This document shows positions 26,466 through 46,343 of a stretch of DNA of 64,000 nt, in pieces. Origin of the DNA: Loktanella salsilacus. Its GTDB lineage: Bacteria > Pseudomonadota > Alphaproteobacteria > Rhodobacterales > Rhodobacteraceae. Where the stretch lies: NCBI RefSeq assembly GCF_900114485.1, contig NZ_FOTF01000019.1:1-64000 (forward strand). The letters run 5' to 3'. Each line of letters starts with the position of its first letter. Positions within the stretch are counted from its first letter, which is position 1. Under the pieces are notes generated by a model. The model did not search any database and was not told the DNA's origin. It saw only the letters and a program-made list of their open reading frames with translations. Position numbers and translations under genes: made by a program.

Positions 26466-26535
26466 CCTTCTTCTGGTCAAAAATATCTCGGGTTTTAGGG
26501 CAGAGCCCTAACCCGATTTTTCGCCGAAAAATCGG
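26466..26535 (+). repeat. palindromic intergenic repeat, copy A
   Basis: The copy begins CCTTCTTCTGGTCAAAAAT, then has an inner palindrome TTAGGGC-AGA-GCCCTAA, and ends with a perfect 10-bp inverted repeat CCGATTTTTC-GCC-GAAAAATCGG (26513-26535). Two more copies lie at 30444 and 32189. The final hairpin could also act as a terminator for tpa. Confidence 0.8.
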
Positions 26536-26563
26536 ATCGCCCCCGGATGTTAGGCCGTGAAAT

Positions 26564-27304
26564 ATGCCTTTTGACCTCGCCCCAGCCGCAGCGGCCTTTC
26601 TGGCATGCGCCCTGCTTGGGGCCGCGATCATACGCGGCTACACAGGCTTTGGCTTTTCCGCGATTTTCATTGCCTGCGCGAGCCTTGTCACAAACCCGCT
26701 GCCTTTGATCCCGGTCGTCTTCATGGCAGAAATTGCCATGACATCCCTGCAAGCACGGGGCATGCGGGGGCACATTGACTGGCACCGCGCGGGCGCGTTG
26801 CTGGCGGGGGCGGCACTGGCCCTCCCCGCCGCGATCTGGGTCATGTTGCAACTGCCCGCGCCAACGGTCCAACTGTTGATCAGCGCCATCATCGGGGTTC
26901 TGTCTCTCGTCATGCTCAGCGGCTGGACGCTCCAGCAGCCCTTAGGCCGCATGGGCCATGTCCTCACGGGCATCGTTGCAGGCAGCGCGAATGCAGCAGG
27001 TGTCGGCGGGCTGCCCGTTGCCGCCTGCCTTGGGGCGCAGCCGATCCCCGCCGCAACTTTTCGCGCGACGATGATCGTGTTTCTGACCGGCCTTGATCTG
27101 ATGACCCTGCCCCTGCTGGGGCTTGGCGGCCAGATCACGACGGACACCTTTGCCGCAGCCTTGATCGCGACGCCCTTTCTTGCCGCTGGTATCCTGCTTG
27201 GCAATCGCCGCTTTGCCGCAGCGCCGCCCGCTACCTTTCGCCGCTTTGCCACGTGGTTGCTGCTTTGCCTGTCAGTGCTTGGTGTTCTGCGCAGCCTGAC
27301 CTGA
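26564..27304 (+). CDS. tauE: TauE/SafE family sulfite exporter-type permease
   Basis: A 246-aa integral membrane protein with about eight hydrophobic segments and the TauE/SafE pattern of Gly-rich helices (RGYTGFGFSAIFIACASL near the start, GIVAGSANAAGVGGLPVA in the middle). In taurine-degrading Roseobacters such proteins are proposed to export sulfite released from sulfoacetaldehyde. Its place between tpa and a sulfite-oxidase-type operon supports that substrate. The 273-bp gap to soeA shows no gene. Confidence 0.8.
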   Translation: MPFDLAPAAAAFLACALLGAAIIRGYTGFGFSAIFIACASLVTNPLPLIPVVFMAEIAMTSLQARGMRGHIDWHRAGALLAGAALALPAAIWVMLQLPAPTVQLLISAIIGVLSLVMLSGWTLQQPLGRMGHVLTGIVAGSANAAGVGGLPVAACLGAQPIPAATFRATMIVFLTGLDLMTLPLLGLGGQITTDTFAAALIATPFLAAGILLGNRRFAAAPPATFRRFATWLLLCLSVLGVLRSLT

Positions 27305-27577
27305 TTGATACGGCCCGCTCTGCGCGGTTTTACGTCGGTATTCTTGCCCCTTGCGCCGCAAACCGCTGCAGAGATTACCAAATTGATACACTGGTCATTG
27401 CGCCTGTCATCATGAACAATACCCGCACCATCAGCGCCGCGACCCGCAAGGGGGGCTGGTCCATGACGGACCGGGCCGGGTCACGGCAGCCAATGCGACA
27501 GGAGGGGCCCGTTTGCACATGATCCGCACGTCGACCAAGCCGCAACCTTGCGCCGATCCGGCACGAAAGGCGAACCC

Positions 27578-30418
27578 ATGACCGACCCTGTGCTCGACCT
27601 GTCCAAGCCCATTGGCACCGAAATCCGCAAAACCACCTGCTATATGTGCGCCTGTCGTTGCGGCATCGACGTGCATATGAAGGACGGCCCTGACGGCAAA
27701 AAACGCGCCGCCTATATCGAAGGCAACCGCGACCACCCGCTGAACAAAGGCGTGCTCTGTGCAAAGGGCTCTGCGGGTATCATGCAGCATAATGCGCCGT
27801 CCCGCCTGCGGGCACCGATGAAACGCACTGGCCCGCGCGGGTCGGGGGAATACGAAGAAATCACCTGGGACGAGGCGCTGGACCTTGCGACATCCTGGCT
27901 CAAGCCGCTGCGCGAAACAGCGCCGGAAAAGCTGGCGTTCTTTACCGGGCGCGATCAGTCGCAAAGCTTTACCTCGCTTTGGGCGCAGGGCTTTGGCACG
28001 CCGAACTACGCAGCCCACGGCGGCTTTTGCAGCGTGAACATGGCGGCGGCGGGTATCTATACGATGGGCGGCGCGTTCTGGGAATTTGGCCAGCCGGATT
28101 GGGACCATACCAAGCTGTTTCTGCTGTTCGGCGTGGCCGAAGACCACGACAGCAACCCGATCAAAATGGGGATCGGTAAGCTAAAAGGACGCGGTGCCCG
28201 CATCGTCGGAGTGAACCCGATCCGGACCGGTTACAATGCTGTTGCCGACGATTGGTTCGGCGTGACCCCGGGCAATGACGGGCTGCTGATCCTATCGCTA
28301 ATCCACTGCCTGATGACCTCAGGCCAGATCGACACCGACTATCTGGCGCGCTTCACCAATGCCTCTGTCCTTGTGAACCAAGACCCCAAATCGCCAGACT
28401 ATGGCCTGTTCATCCGCGACGACGAACTGCGCCCGCAAGTGATCGATCGCCGCACCGGCAAGCTGGCCCCGTGGAACGGCATCGGCGTTGAACCCAGCCT
28501 GACTGGCACATGGCGCAACGCGGGTTTCACCCACCGCAGCGTGTTTCACCTGATGGCCGACCGTTATACCGACCCGGTCCATGCGCCCGAAAACGTGGCG
28601 GACCGCGTCGGCATCCCCGCGTCCCGCATCCGCCAGCTGGCCGCCGATATGGCCGACGTCGCCTTCAATCAGCCCGTCATTCTGGACCAGCCTTGGACCG
28701 ATTTCCGCGGCAAAAAGCACGACCAAATGATTGGCCGCCCCGTCAGCGTGCATGCCATGCGCGGCATCAGCGCCCATTCCAACGGCTTTCAGACCTGCCG
28801 CGCCCTGCATACGCTGCAGATCATCCTCGGCGCGGTGGAAACCCCCGGCGGCATGCGCTTTAAACCGCCCTACCCCAAGCCCGCGACGGCCCACCCCAAA
28901 CCGCATTGCAAAGTTGTCCCCGGTCAGCCGCTGGACGGCCCGCACCTTGGCTATCCCCAAGGGCCAGAGGATCTGTGCTTGACCGACGCTGGCGATCCAG
29001 CCCGCATCGACAAGGCCTTCACCTGGGAAAACCCCATGTCCGCCCATGGCCTGATGCATATGGTCATCAGCAATGCCCACGCCGGCGATCCCTATAAAAT
29101 CGACACGCTGTTTGTGTATATGGCGAATATGTCTTGGAATTCGTCGATGAATACGCGCGGCGTGATCGACATGCTGACCGACCAAACCGAGGACGGCGAC
29201 TATGTCATCCCGCGGATCATCTATTCCGACGCCTATGCGTCTGAGATGGTGGCCTACGCCGACCTAATTTTGCCCGATACAACCTATCTGGAGCGTCACG
29301 ACTGCATTTCCCTGCTCGACCGCCCAATCTGCGAGGCGGACGCCGTCGCTGACGCGATCCGCTGGCCCGTGGTCGCACCGGACCGCGACGTGCGCGCCTT
29401 TCAATCCGTGCTCTGCGATCTGGGCGCGCGGCTGGACTTGCCTGGTTTCGTAAACGCCGACGGCAGCGCCAAATACGCCGACTACGCCGATTACATCACC
29501 CACCACCTGCGCCGCCCCGGCATCGGCCCACTTGCGGGCTGGCGCATAGGCGACAACGGATTGCAAGGCGGGCGCGGTGAGCCGAACGGCAACCAGCTGA
29601 ACGAATACATCGCCAACGGCGGCTTCTGGACCAGCCATATCCCGGCAGAGGCAGCATACTACAAACCCTTCAACCGCGCTTATCAGGACTGGGCGGTGAC
29701 CATGGGTCTGTATGACGCGCCGCAGCCCTATATCTTTCAGCTTTACGTCGAACCGATGCGCCGCTTTCAGCTCGCCGCCGAAGGGCACGGTTTGCGCCAG
29801 CCCCCCGACCACCTGCGCGGCCAGATCAAAGTCACCATGGACCCCCTGCCGATCTGGTATCCCCCGTTCGAGGATGGCCATATCGACCCCGCCGAATATG
29901 ACGTGCACGCCCTGACCCAGCGGCCCATGGCGATGTATCACAGCTGGGGCGGCCAGAATGCGTGGCTGCGGCAAATTCACGGGCATAACCCGCTTTATGT
30001 ACCGACGAAAATCTGGACTAAGCACGGCTTCAAGGACGGCGACTGGGCCCGCGTAACCTCTGCCCACGGGTCGATCACCGTGCCTGTCGCGCTGCAGGAA
30101 TCCCTGAACGAAAGCACAGTCTGGACGTGGAACGCCATTGGCAAACGCAAGGGCGCTTGGGCGCTGGACAAGGACGCGCCTGAGGCAACAAAAGGCTTCC
30201 TGCTGAACCACCTGATCCACGAGCTGCTGCCGCCCAAAGGCGACGGCCTGCGCTGGTCCAATTCCGACCCGATTACCGGCCAGGCCGCGTGGTTCGACCT
30301 ACGCGTCAAAATCGAAAAATCCGGCGCGCCGCAAGAATCGCAACCGATCCTGCCGCCCATCGCGTCCCCGCTTCCGCAGGCACCGCGCAGCCTGCGCTGG
30401 AAGGTTGGCAAAGCATGA
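27578..30418 (+). CDS. soeA: SoeA-type molybdopterin oxidoreductase, catalytic subunit
   Basis: A 946-aa DMSO-reductase-family enzyme. The N-terminal [4Fe-4S] site is CYMCACRCGIDVH with a fourth Cys in GVLCAKG. The predicted Mo ligand is the Cys of HGGFCSVNM. There is no Tat signal peptide, so it is cytoplasmic, as known for SoeABC sulfite dehydrogenase. With soeB and soeC it should oxidise sulfite to sulfate and pass electrons to the quinone pool. The alternative is another polysulfide/thiosulfate-reductase-like enzyme; the tpa-tauE context favours sulfite. The start at 27578 has GAAAGG upstream. Confidence 0.82.
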   Translation: MTDPVLDLSKPIGTEIRKTTCYMCACRCGIDVHMKDGPDGKKRAAYIEGNRDHPLNKGVLCAKGSAGIMQHNAPSRLRAPMKRTGPRGSGEYEEITWDEALDLATSWLKPLRETAPEKLAFFTGRDQSQSFTSLWAQGFGTPNYAAHGGFCSVNMAAAGIYTMGGAFWEFGQPDWDHTKLFLLFGVAEDHDSNPIKMGIGKLKGRGARIVGVNPIRTGYNAVADDWFGVTPGNDGLLILSLIHCLMTSGQIDTDYLARFTNASVLVNQDPKSPDYGLFIRDDELRPQVIDRRTGKLAPWNGIGVEPSLTGTWRNAGFTHRSVFHLMADRYTDPVHAPENVADRVGIPASRIRQLAADMADVAFNQPVILDQPWTDFRGKKHDQMIGRPVSVHAMRGISAHSNGFQTCRALHTLQIILGAVETPGGMRFKPPYPKPATAHPKPHCKVVPGQPLDGPHLGYPQGPEDLCLTDAGDPARIDKAFTWENPMSAHGLMHMVISNAHAGDPYKIDTLFVYMANMSWNSSMNTRGVIDMLTDQTEDGDYVIPRIIYSDAYASEMVAYADLILPDTTYLERHDCISLLDRPICEADAVADAIRWPVVAPDRDVRAFQSVLCDLGARLDLPGFVNADGSAKYADYADYITHHLRRPGIGPLAGWRIGDNGLQGGRGEPNGNQLNEYIANGGFWTSHIPAEAAYYKPFNRAYQDWAVTMGLYDAPQPYIFQLYVEPMRRFQLAAEGHGLRQPPDHLRGQIKVTMDPLPIWYPPFEDGHIDPAEYDVHALTQRPMAMYHSWGGQNAWLRQIHGHNPLYVPTKIWTKHGFKDGDWARVTSAHGSITVPVALQESLNESTVWTWNAIGKRKGAWALDKDAPEATKGFLLNHLIHELLPPKGDGLRWSNSDPITGQAAWFDLRVKIEKSGAPQESQPILPPIASPLPQAPRSLRWKVGKA

Positions 30419-30443
30419 TCGCTCTTTCGCACCGCCCCGCCCT

Positions 30444-30521
30444 CCTTCTTCTGGTCAGAAATACCTCGGGGGGAGTCCGCAGGACGGGGGGCTGGCCCCC
30501 CCGATTTTTCACCGAAAAATC
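30444..30521 (+). repeat. palindromic intergenic repeat, copy B (inside the soe operon)
   Basis: Same layout as copy A: CCTTCTTCTGGTCAGAAATA, inner palindrome GGGGGGC-TG-GCCCCCC, terminal CCGATTTTTC-ACC-GAAAAATC. It fills most of the 127 bp between soeA and soeB. A strong hairpin inside an operon may tune relative expression or mRNA decay. Confidence 0.8.
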
Positions 30522-30545
30522 ACCCTTCCGCAAAGGCTGCACCAC

Positions 30546-31307
30546 ATGACAACCTTGCCGCCGCCCTCTGCCGTAAAGCTCGGCCTTGTGATCGACCTTG
30601 ATACCTGCGTTGGCTGTCATGCCTGCGTCGTAGCCTGCAAAGCCTGGAACACGCAAAGCGATCTGGGCGCGCCGCTCTCGGACCAAGACCCTTACGGCGC
30701 GGACCCCAGCGGCACATTCCTGAACCGCGTGCACAGCTACGAGGTGACCCCGCAGGACCGCCCGACGCAGCAAGTCCACTTTCCCAAATCCTGCCTGCAC
30801 TGCGACGACGCGCCCTGCGTCACCGTTTGCCCCACGGGTGCCAGCTATAAGCGGCAGGCCGACGGCATCGTCTTGGTGAACGAGGACGCCTGCATCGGCT
30901 GCGGGCTGTGCGCTTGGGCCTGTCCTTATGGCGCGCGGGAAATGGACCCGGCGGCGGGGGTGATGAAGAAATGCACGCTTTGCGTCGATCGCATCTATAA
31001 CGAGGCCCTGCCAGAGGTCGACCGCACCCCCGCCTGCGTGCGGACCTGCCCCGCAGGCGCGCGGCACTTTGGCGATCTGGGCGATGCGGACTCGGACGTC
31101 AGCAAGCTGGTGGCCGAACGCGGCGGCTTTGATCTGATGCCAGAGATGGGGACCAAGCCCGTGAACAAATATCTGCCGCCGCGGCCCCGCGACGCCGATC
31201 AGATCGATATCCTTGCGCCCTTGCTGGCCCCCGTGGCCAGCGACGGCAAAGGGCTAATTGCGTGGCTGGACAAGGCGTTGTCCAAGCTGCCGGGGGGACA
31301 TGCCTGA
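30546..31307 (+). CDS. soeB: SoeB-type iron-sulfur electron transfer subunit
   Basis: A 253-aa ferredoxin-like subunit of the DmsB/NrfC/PsrB class. Four Cys clusters predict four [4Fe-4S] centres: CVGCHACVVACK, CLHCDDAPCVTVCPTGA, CIGCGLCAWACPYG, and CTLCVDR with CVRTCPAGA. It carries electrons from SoeA to the membrane subunit. The start at 30546 lies after the palindromic repeat; an in-frame ATG inside soeA (30405) is not credible. Its stop overlaps the soeC start (TGATG). Confidence 0.86.
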   Translation: MTTLPPPSAVKLGLVIDLDTCVGCHACVVACKAWNTQSDLGAPLSDQDPYGADPSGTFLNRVHSYEVTPQDRPTQQVHFPKSCLHCDDAPCVTVCPTGASYKRQADGIVLVNEDACIGCGLCAWACPYGAREMDPAAGVMKKCTLCVDRIYNEALPEVDRTPACVRTCPAGARHFGDLGDADSDVSKLVAERGGFDLMPEMGTKPVNKYLPPRPRDADQIDILAPLLAPVASDGKGLIAWLDKALSKLPGGHA

Positions 31308-32176
31308 TGCATCCGGCACCTTCCGTCATTTTATTCACGACGTTTTCCGGGCTCGGGTTCGGCCTGCTGTTCTGGCTTGGCCTTGGCCAACCCGCCCCCA
31401 CCGGCTGGGTCGCCTTTGCGTTTTTTGCGCTGGCCTATGCCATGGCGGTCGGCGGGCTTTTGGCATCGACATTCCACCTTGGCCATCCAGAGCGTGCCTA
31501 TTTGGCAGTCACCCAGTGGCGCACCAGCTGGCTGTCCCGCGAAGCGATCGCGGCGATTGCGACGCTGCTGACAGGCGGGGTGTTCGCCTTGCTGCGGATC
31601 TGGGACATCTCGGCCGCGCCCTTGGGATGGCTGGTATCGCTGGGTTGCCTTGCCACCGTTTTCACCACCGCGATGATCTATACCCAAATGCGCACCGTGC
31701 CGCGCTGGCGCCACTGGACGACGCCCGCGCTGTTTCTAGCGCTGTCGCTGGCGGGCGGGGCCATCTTGGCCAATCGCGGCAGTGCCGCGCTGGTCCTGCT
31801 GGCCTTGGCCGCCGTCTTGCAACTGGTTGCGTGGATCACGGGCGATATGCGCTTGCAGCAGTCTGGCACGACATTGGGCACTGCCACCGGGCTGGGTGAT
31901 ATCGGCCGGGTCCGCGCATTCCTGCCGCCGCACTCGGGGTCAAACTATCTGCTACGGGAATTTGTTTATGTTGTCGGCCGCCGCCATGCGCTGCAGCTGC
32001 GCGCCATCGGGCTGATCCTGGCCTTTGGCGTGCCGATCCCGCTGATTGCGGCCGGGCTTGGTCATATCACAGCGCTGGTCGCCGTACTGGCCCATATCGC
32101 CGGCGTGCTCTGCCTGCGTTGGCTGTTTTTCGCACAGGCCGAACATGTGGTCGGCCTGTATTATGGCAAGCGATAG
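31307..32176 (+). CDS. soeC: SoeC-type membrane anchor subunit (DmsC family)
   Basis: A 289-aa membrane protein with about eight hydrophobic helices and no signal peptide, matching the DmsC-type quinone-reducing anchors. Visible features are SVILFTTFSGLGFGLLFWLG at the start, STFHLGHPERAYLAVTQWR (a conserved His-rich loop typical of the family) and a C-terminal LFFAQAEHVVGLYYGKR. It should hold SoeAB on the cytoplasmic face and pass electrons to quinone. Translation is coupled to soeB. Confidence 0.84.
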   Translation: MHPAPSVILFTTFSGLGFGLLFWLGLGQPAPTGWVAFAFFALAYAMAVGGLLASTFHLGHPERAYLAVTQWRTSWLSREAIAAIATLLTGGVFALLRIWDISAAPLGWLVSLGCLATVFTTAMIYTQMRTVPRWRHWTTPALFLALSLAGGAILANRGSAALVLLALAAVLQLVAWITGDMRLQQSGTTLGTATGLGDIGRVRAFLPPHSGSNYLLREFVYVVGRRHALQLRAIGLILAFGVPIPLIAAGLGHITALVAVLAHIAGVLCLRWLFFAQAEHVVGLYYGKR

Positions 32177-32188
32177 CGGTGGGGCGGT

Positions 32189-32258
32189 CCGATTTTTCGG
32201 CGAAAAATCGGGTTGGGGCGCTGCCCCAAACCCCGAGGTATTTTTGACCAGAAGAAGG
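32189..32258 (-). repeat. palindromic intergenic repeat, copy C (inverted)
   Basis: An inverted copy: CCGATTTTTC-GGC-GAAAAATCGG at 32189-32211, inner palindrome TTGGGGC-GCT-GCCCCAA, then the complement of the CTTCTTCTGGTCAAAAATA arm ending near 32258. It lies between the convergent ends of soeC and the ABC ATPase gene, where it could serve as a bidirectional terminator. Confidence 0.8.
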
Positions 32259-42491: not shown

Positions 42492-42542
42492 ACGCGGGCG
42501 TCCCCCATCATCTTGCCAAAAATACTCAAAAAGGTCCCAGAC

Positions 42543-45787: not shown

Positions 45788-46005
45788 ACGCGCACTCCTT
45801 TTCATTTCGCCTGTGAACAAGCGGCCTGCTTCCCCGCTTGTCAACCCGGCCAGCACCAAGCCGGAGCCTAAAACTTTTCGCCCAAAAGGTTTAACACCGG
45901 ACGATTATTCATCGAAAAATCGTTGCACCCCGCATCCCGCGCATAAAAGTGGAAAAATGCGTTTGACACCGCCCCCTGGTCCGCTTATCGGATGCGCCGT
46001 GGTGA

Positions 46006-46082
46006 GGCGCGGTAGCTCAGTTGGTTAGAGCGATCGACTCATAATCGATAGGTCGGGAGTTCAAGTCTCCCCCACGCCACCA
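46006..46082 (+). tRNA. tRNA with CAU anticodon (elongator Met or Ile2)
   Basis: A full cloverleaf with encoded CCA. The acceptor is GGCGCGG/CCACGCC with one C-A mismatch. The D arm is GCTC...GAGC, the anticodon arm ATCGA-CTCATAA-TCGAT (anticodon CAT), and the T arm GGGAG-TTCAAGT-CTCCC. CAU can mean elongator Met or lysidine-modified Ile; G1-C72 pairing excludes the initiator. The two cannot be separated by eye. Confidence 0.9.
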
Positions 46083-46200
46083 CCACAGTCTCCCAGCTCA
46101 AATGCACCGCGAAACCGACACCCCGGACCGACCGGCGCATTTGCTGCGCAAGCCACGCTGTGTCGGGAGTTCAAGTCTCCCCCACGCCACCACCACAGTC
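46052..46200. repeat. direct repeat of the tRNA 3' end
   Basis: An identical 39-bp sequence occurs at 46052-46090 and 46162-46200. It covers the last 31 nt of the tRNA (var loop to CCA) plus 8 bp. The DNA after each copy is still partly alike, so it looks like an old tandem duplication of about 110 bp whose second copy lost the tRNA 5' part. The second copy cannot fold as a tRNA. Confidence 0.85.
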
Positions 46201-46343
46201 CACCAGTTCAAAACGAAGCGCGAAGCAGCCACCGCAGATCGCTCACGCGCGTTTGCTGTTTAGCGCGCCTCAATATTTGGCATACCATCTTGCAACGTCC
46301 CCACAGCAGGTTCAGGGTCTGCGCAACAGACCGGGGGACCACG

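Follow-up and report, generated by a model that had tools for sequence, protein, structure and literature searches.

A REP-like gene-end repeat of Rhodobacteraceae with a lineage-specific 22-letter box, possibly read on DNA by a sequence-specific factor

A stretch of 64,000 nucleotides from Loktanella salsilacus (contig NZ_FOTF01000019.1, positions 1 to 64,000, here called the window) carries three copies of a palindromic repeat that recurs throughout the genome. The strongest feature of this element is a spaced, asymmetric box of 22 letters, CTTCTTCTGGTC-nn-AAATACCT, which lies 5' of a G/C hairpin with a doubled 5' G-run and whose spelling is lineage-specific. The best explanation, which we put forward with real reservation, is that the element is a REP-like (repetitive extragenic palindromic) gene-end repeat of Rhodobacteraceae, the box of which is probably read on DNA by a putative sequence-specific factor; we infer both this factor and its function. 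A first-pass annotation of the window had recognized the three copies and had taken compensatory changes in their stems as a sign of selection on structure. This interpretation is partly supported; the 22-letter box was not singled out in it.

The three copies in the window are real and constitute a single element, laid out as CTTCTTCTGGTC, two free letters, AAATA, YCY (Y being C or T), G-run and hairpin. At up to 3 mismatches the pattern CTTCTTCTGGTCNNAAATA has 58+55 = 113 matches in the 4.13 Mb genome, or about one copy per 36 kb, as against 3+1 = 4 for the reversed-pattern control; the 99 copies analyzed below come from the fetched stretches, where up to 2 mismatches were allowed. Several spellings coexist in this genome, namely an alpha type (CTGGT core), a beta type and a CTCGT type, the last often in tandem with alpha copies. 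The body following the box may be a simple hairpin (G-run, three letters, the same G-run, loop, C-run), a form with an extra hairpin between both G-runs, a short CCTCCGCCGGAGG type or one of several rarer types. Among the copies that could be parsed (60 of 242 could not), the two G-runs are identical in 65/92 of those from L. salsilacus, in 22/38 and 24/30 from two other genomes of the same genus (our G307 and G200) and in 20/22 from other genera, and in all four sets alike this matching exceeds the maximum of 5000 shuffles. Hence the C-run could pair with either G-run; the doubled G-run could also stem from slippage between the repeated G-runs. The AT-rich CGATTTTTC/GAAAAATCG hairpin, which had been counted as a part of the family, proves to be an optional accessory present in 13 of the 99 copies. 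Five L. salsilacus copies (L032, L033, L072, L083 and L088) have a larger insert of the GGTTGGTGCGCCACTGGTTCAAGAACCAGCC type between the G-runs, and in a G307 copy with this insert (L219) a compensating change from CTGGTT/AACCAG to CTGGTC/GACCAG is seen. At L017, L020, L022, L071, L079 and L090 a module 3' of the body forms a long hairpin of the GGATCGG...CGATCC kind. Contig C47 (272 kb) of the L. salsilacus genome has one listed copy against the overall density of about one per 36 kb, and may be a different replicon.

The spelling of the box differs by lineage. All 85 alpha boxes of L. salsilacus have [CT]C[TG] after AAATA, with T or G at position 21 throughout, and position 21 is C in all 42 boxes of G307 and all 34 of G200. 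Mapping of the L. salsilacus copies to these two genomes by their flanks gave 44 rows, 34 of which held exactly one box at a distinct site; when 7 that lacked an alpha box on both sides were dropped, 27 one-to-one orthologous alpha pairs remained. In these pairs the core TTCTTCTGGT is 100% identical, a value that is partly built in as the pattern for orthologous boxes allowed 2 changes, and AAATA is 98.5% identical. Agreement is 50% at the nn positions and 36-39% in the upstream flank; it is 19% at position 19, 100% at position 20 and 0% at position 21, the last of which lay outside the pattern. In 11/27 pairs (1 expected) none of the 27 bodies matches better than the orthologous one, which indicates that the same old copy was kept while the letters of its box changed, and a site-specific T at position 22 is kept beside the changed letter in 3 of the 27 pairs. 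The shift occurs whatever the hairpin or orientation, and at co-directional sites the change at position 21 is complete in both sense (19/19) and antisense (22/22) copies. Since the shift is no less complete at antisense than at sense sites, the proposed reading of the box would take place on double-stranded DNA. The older-looking CTCGT type of L. salsilacus has kept TCCC in 7 of 10 copies. Different spellings at shared sites are also seen in a second genus, where the main spellings are TTTCTTCTGGCC and CTTTTTCTTGTC in genomes G012 and G233. From 41 and 37 matches in these genomes 30 loci were fetched, and the 4 sites that share long flanks all carry the element in the same orientation with a different spelling, one pair having a clearly related body. 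Had the boxes been copied from a master element, nn letters and body would have come with them. What is seen is point changes at two positions in dozens of sites, next to site-specific letters that did not change, and selection exerted by whatever reads the box explains these better.

Selection on hairpin pairing is supported. The inner stems of the window copies are TTAGGGC/GCCCTAA (copy 1), GGGGGG/CCCCCC (copy 2) and TTGGGGC/GCCCCAA (copy 3), and the first-pass claim that such differences preserve the structure is borne out by copies elsewhere. In a set of 80 simple-class copies from five or more genera, the two flanking pairs are Watson-Crick in 77/80 and 70/80 cases (shuffle means 37.6 and 28.5; maxima 54 and 43), so that the loss of inner-stem pairing in other copies, named beforehand as the finding that would speak against the claim, did not occur. 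When 34 copies (22 distinct rows) are aligned without gaps, 96.1% of cells are paired as against 88.4% in shuffled versions, and the covariation score is 0.250 as against 0.108, with none of 500 shuffles as high; every value drops when the partner is slid. The numbers of pairs with a double change (2 versus 1.6) and of further pair types (4 versus 5.3) in these 22 distinct rows are not above those in shuffles because only two outer pairs vary freely. Compensating changes are also observed at orthologous sites, from GC/GC to GT/AC at L013 and from GGAGGC/GCCTCC to GGAGGT/ACCTCC at L027. Folding of single copies is less telling than pairing across copies: relative to shuffles, copy 1 has z-scores of -3.32 (+) and -4.08 (-) and copy 3 of -2.75 (-) and -1.48 (+), and copy 2 folds no better than shuffles (-0.41 on + and 0.31 on -).

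The copies lie at gene ends. None of the 99 L. salsilacus copies is inside a predicted gene (the gene calls come from a small codon-model script rather than an established caller); 45 are in convergent gaps, 50 in co-directional gaps (24 sense and 26 antisense), 3 in divergent gaps and 1 is unclear. The 407 control gene pairs of the same genome, from 464 kb of sequence that includes the window and was partly picked away from known copies, comprise 52 convergent, 300 co-directional and 55 divergent ones, against which convergent gaps are enriched (odds ratio 5.8, Fisher p 5e-12) and divergent gaps depleted (p 0.002). Where the genes converge, stop codon and box are a median of 13 nt apart, and the gap as a whole measures 106 nt. 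The convergent placement is weaker in the relatives (16/45 in G307 and 12/46 in G200). In several antisense copies, for example L024, L049, L051 and L081, the antisense end of the box (AGAAGAAGG) is about 10-20 nt 5' of the next start codon, and it might act as a ribosome-binding site.

These observations suggest a model in which the element would have two working parts, a spaced asymmetric box of about 22 bp with two free positions and a hairpin-forming body. The box would be read in trans by a sequence-specific factor, which would most likely be a DNA-binding protein, and when the specificity of this factor drifts in a lineage, the sites would follow. It is conceivable that the bound box and the hairpin together form a boundary at gene ends, which might slow or end transcription coming from either side, or take up supercoils in the manner of REP sites and bacterial interspersed mosaic elements (BIMEs). 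BIMEs are gyrase-binding REP arrays, and REP/BIME sites take up supercoils; the analogy would lie in a strand-independent role at gene ends exerted at the level of DNA, the copies of the present element being, unlike BIME arrays, mostly single. Such a boundary would not be an absolute terminator, since copies also occur inside operons such as soeA-soeB. A more far-reaching formulation, which we offer only tentatively, is that gene ends in Rhodobacteraceae are marked by a DNA address for a putative lineage-tuned DNA-binding factor, that this factor and its approximately one hundred sites per genome co-evolve into dialects, and that the hairpin and the bound factor act as a two-way boundary for transcription or supercoiling.

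Several observations weigh against the reading as a gene-end element with a box recognized by a factor, in addition to the partly built-in identity of the core. The box is present in the same orientation in 38 of the 44 mapped rows, an occupancy that is overstated as the stretches of G307 and G200 were picked around copies of their own. It is inverted in 2 rows and absent by pattern in 4, of which two (L048) represent one truly empty site and L041 has a degraded box. In 16/27 orthologous pairs the body is not the best match of its own orthologue, and thus bodies also turn over. In the relatives some copies are called inside genes (2/45 in G307, 2/46 in G200) or lie in divergent gaps (5/45 and 2/46, respectively). 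The canonical terminator form, a G/C hairpin with a T-tract, occurs somewhere at 43/129 element-bearing gene ends, about a third. The mismatches in stems (20 G-T, 29 A-C and 90 others) show no sign of RNA-specific G-U pairing, though these data are noisy.

The empty site L048 would also fit a miniature mobile element similar to REPs or miniature inverted-repeat transposable elements, which would be spread by a putative transposase with a preference for gene ends or old copies and would have produced the different spellings as successive active subfamilies. The coexistence of spellings in one genome (two of them in G012), the tandem CTCGT and alpha copies of L. salsilacus and the state of the soeA-soeB junction (occupied in 24 of 80 genomes, overlapping in 14) point in the same direction. 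However, orthologous sites with the same unusual body and different box letters (L027, L053) are not explained by fresh insertion, and a partner transposase of the RAYT (REP-associated tyrosine transposase) kind, as envisaged by the first-pass annotation, was not found: the Y1/RAYT family (PF01797, Y1_Tnp) has no match in L. salsilacus, G200 or G307, with control matches in 5/14 named genomes, and it occurs in 7/34 genomes with 60 or more boxes (p 0.09; counted by eye, one of the 7 being below the family cut-off). One spelling gave 2 exact matches in IMG/VR contigs against 1 for the reversed control, so that neither enrichment there nor spread by phages is indicated. We regard the mobile element as unlikely, while taking it seriously. 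Homogenization by gene conversion among the copies, without any reading factor, would account for a genome-specific spelling common to the copies and for the A-rich nn positions of L. salsilacus, as could master copying; but the changed letters adjoin site-specific letters and bodies that were kept, which would require tracts of about 3 bases at many sites, and conversion has not reached the CTCGT copies of this genome. On the spelling and orthologous-pair data, gene conversion, which appears very improbable, and fresh insertion are both judged less likely than selection in place.

A device acting only in RNA, that is a bidirectional intrinsic terminator or a barrier to 3' exonucleases of which the box is merely a part, would agree with the placement at gene ends, the paired stems and the T-run that directly follows the stem in some copies, as in those of the window. 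We nevertheless consider it rather improbable, since nothing in a terminator calls for a 22-letter spelling with concerted shifts, the co-directional copies face both ways equally, and copies persist between the subunit genes of one enzyme, which makes a strict terminator unlikely. Ends that bear the element seldom have a canonical terminator outside it (12/129, versus 10/55 at other ends), but the two proportions do not differ significantly (p 0.13) and the element ends are shortened by masking in this count; a complementary use of elements and terminators was set aside. The element shares with intrinsic (Rho-independent) terminators the G/C hairpin at the gene end and, in some copies, a T-run after it. 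It differs from them in its conserved box, its occurrence in both orientations and within operons, and the apparent lack of a canonical T-tract at most of the ends that bear it. The box is also reminiscent of the DNA uptake sequences of Neisseriaceae, short motifs with species dialects that follow lineage and, according to PMC3630211, thousands of copies per genome. Lineage dialects and a frequent position at gene ends would suit an uptake-type signal, itself a short asymmetric motif, but with about a hundred copies per genome and an adjacent hairpin body as part of each copy, such a role for the present element is very hard to credit.

The element qualifies as a REP in the wide sense, being high-copy, extragenic, palindromic and mostly at gene 3' ends. 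The CGTC and GTAG super-families of REPs are high-copy intergenic palindromes found mostly in convergent and co-directional gaps near gene 3' ends, and the CGTC REPs, mainly from alphaproteobacteria and without a dedicated transposase, have an unpaired four-letter tag at one end, a stem of 8-9 bp and a CCA-like tail (PMC3733652); Rhodobacter, Roseobacter, Ruegeria and Paracoccus are not named in that text by term search. Unlike CGTC REPs, the element has a 22-letter spaced box 5' of a body that varies in architecture and has its G-run doubled, and a tag (CGTC, TGTC or CCTC) directly at an 8-9 bp stem with a CCA-like tail was not found. CGTC itself is found only in the minor CTCGT type, where nnAAATA and four further letters separate it from the G-run. 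A GTAG-type tetranucleotide at the foot of the stem is absent by the letter frequencies of 86 alpha copies, in which YCYC precedes the stem. The element has no Rfam match at the gathering score in the window, and literature searches aimed at a published description of it, judged by title and abstract opening, found none. A query of PLSDB with one copy returned 4 records (two Loktanella salsilacus, two Thiothrix), none covering 80%, and spread by plasmids was set aside.

The wider pattern CWTCWTCTKGYCNNAAATAY (1 mismatch) has at least one match in 292 of 390 genomes drawn from the order, all of which belong to one GTDB family, and 60 or more matches in 34 of the 390 (counted by eye from tables); spellings outside this pattern would escape the count. 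Outside the family, 285 genomes (of 289 drawn from the class) have at most 2 matches each, which is the chance level. Named relatives of the soeB-like protein, the nearest of which include Yoonia, point to Rhodobacteraceae as this family. If the proposed reading is correct, a very common marine bacterial family would possess an abundant gene-end element without the usual transposase partner, and the single-letter shift in place at dozens of sites would be a rare natural record of a genome tracking a changed recognizing factor. The search for this factor would also become direct, as binding to only one of two dialects would be expected of it.

The coordinates of the window copies and their parts are collected in the table.

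Table. Copies of the element in the window, their parts and a related box
Feature	Coordinates	Strand	Basis
Copy 1, whole	26467-26535	+	
Copy 1 box, CTTCTTCTGGTC-AA-AAATATCT	26467-26488	+	sequence and pattern matching
Copy 1 body: G-run GGG, stem TTAGGGC / loop AGA / GCCCTAA, closing CCCGA	26490-26516	+	sequence and fold
Copy 1 accessory AT-rich hairpin, CCGATTTTTC-GCC-GAAAAATCGG, overlapping the body by a few bases	26513-26535	.	
Copy 2, whole	30445-30521	+	
Copy 2 box, CTTCTTCTGGTC-AG-AAATACCT, in the soeA-soeB gap	30445-30466	+	sequence and pattern matching
Copy 2 body: GGGGGG, small hairpin GTCC-GCA-GGAC, GGGGGG, loop CTGG, CCCCCC	30468-30501	+	
Copy 2 accessory AT-rich hairpin, CGATTTTTC-ACC-GAAAAATC	30502-30521	.	
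Copy 3, whole	32189-32257	-	
Copy 3 box, CTTCTTCTGGTC-AA-AAATACCT, between convergent genes	32236-32257	-	sequence and pattern matching
Copy 3 body: G-run GGGG, TTGGGGC / AGC / GCCCCAA	32213-32234	-	sequence and fold
Copy 3 accessory AT-rich hairpin	32189-32210	.	
Second-spelling box, CATCATCTTGCC-AA-AAATACTC, without G/C hairpin, 3' of a stop codon	42506-42527	+	

Copy 1 is flanked by a class III aminotransferase gene and a TauE-like gene. The gap that holds copy 2 separates a molybdopterin-oxidoreductase (soeA-like) gene from a 4Fe-4S (soeB-like) gene; the first-pass annotation had also put one copy in the soeA-soeB gap. Copy 3 has a DmsC-like (soeC-like) gene on one side and a convergent UgpC-like gene on the other. 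In the window CTTCTTCTGGTC has 3 exact matches and 10 at up to 2 mismatches (shuffle mean 3.2, maximum 9), and the CGATTTTTC hairpin pattern has 8 matches (shuffle mean 0.19), with palindromic places counted on both strands.

At the soeA-soeB junction, the survey of 80 genomes cited above found a box together with a hairpin by a relaxed script, the 3 mismatches of which let in some false matches, and the soeA stop was not placed in 22/80 loci; 11 of the 12 strict box matches in this gap are sense. The sequence ATGACCC flanks the element in four Ruegeria-type loci (L099, L103, L133 and L139), but a target-site duplication is not claimed because these letters could equally come from the element's C-rich 5' flank. 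In 17/80 loci, among them L092, L108, L120, L126 and L135, a small open reading frame that contains a FIWF..ATWD stretch of membrane-like character was flagged between the soeA-like and soeB-like genes, and in L098, L105 and G200 (L240) the box is inside the 3' end of the small open reading frame in this gap.

Two weaker relatives had been proposed in the window, near 42510 and 45900. The former holds as the second-spelling box of the table, and the latter turns out to be an AT-rich hairpin of the accessory type (45902-45921) without a box, about 85 nt 5' of a tRNA gene at 46006-46079 that is the sole Rfam match in the window. The 3' part of this tRNA is repeated at 46162-46212 with 94% identity, Rfam recognizing one tRNA only, and the repeat is possibly a leftover attachment site.

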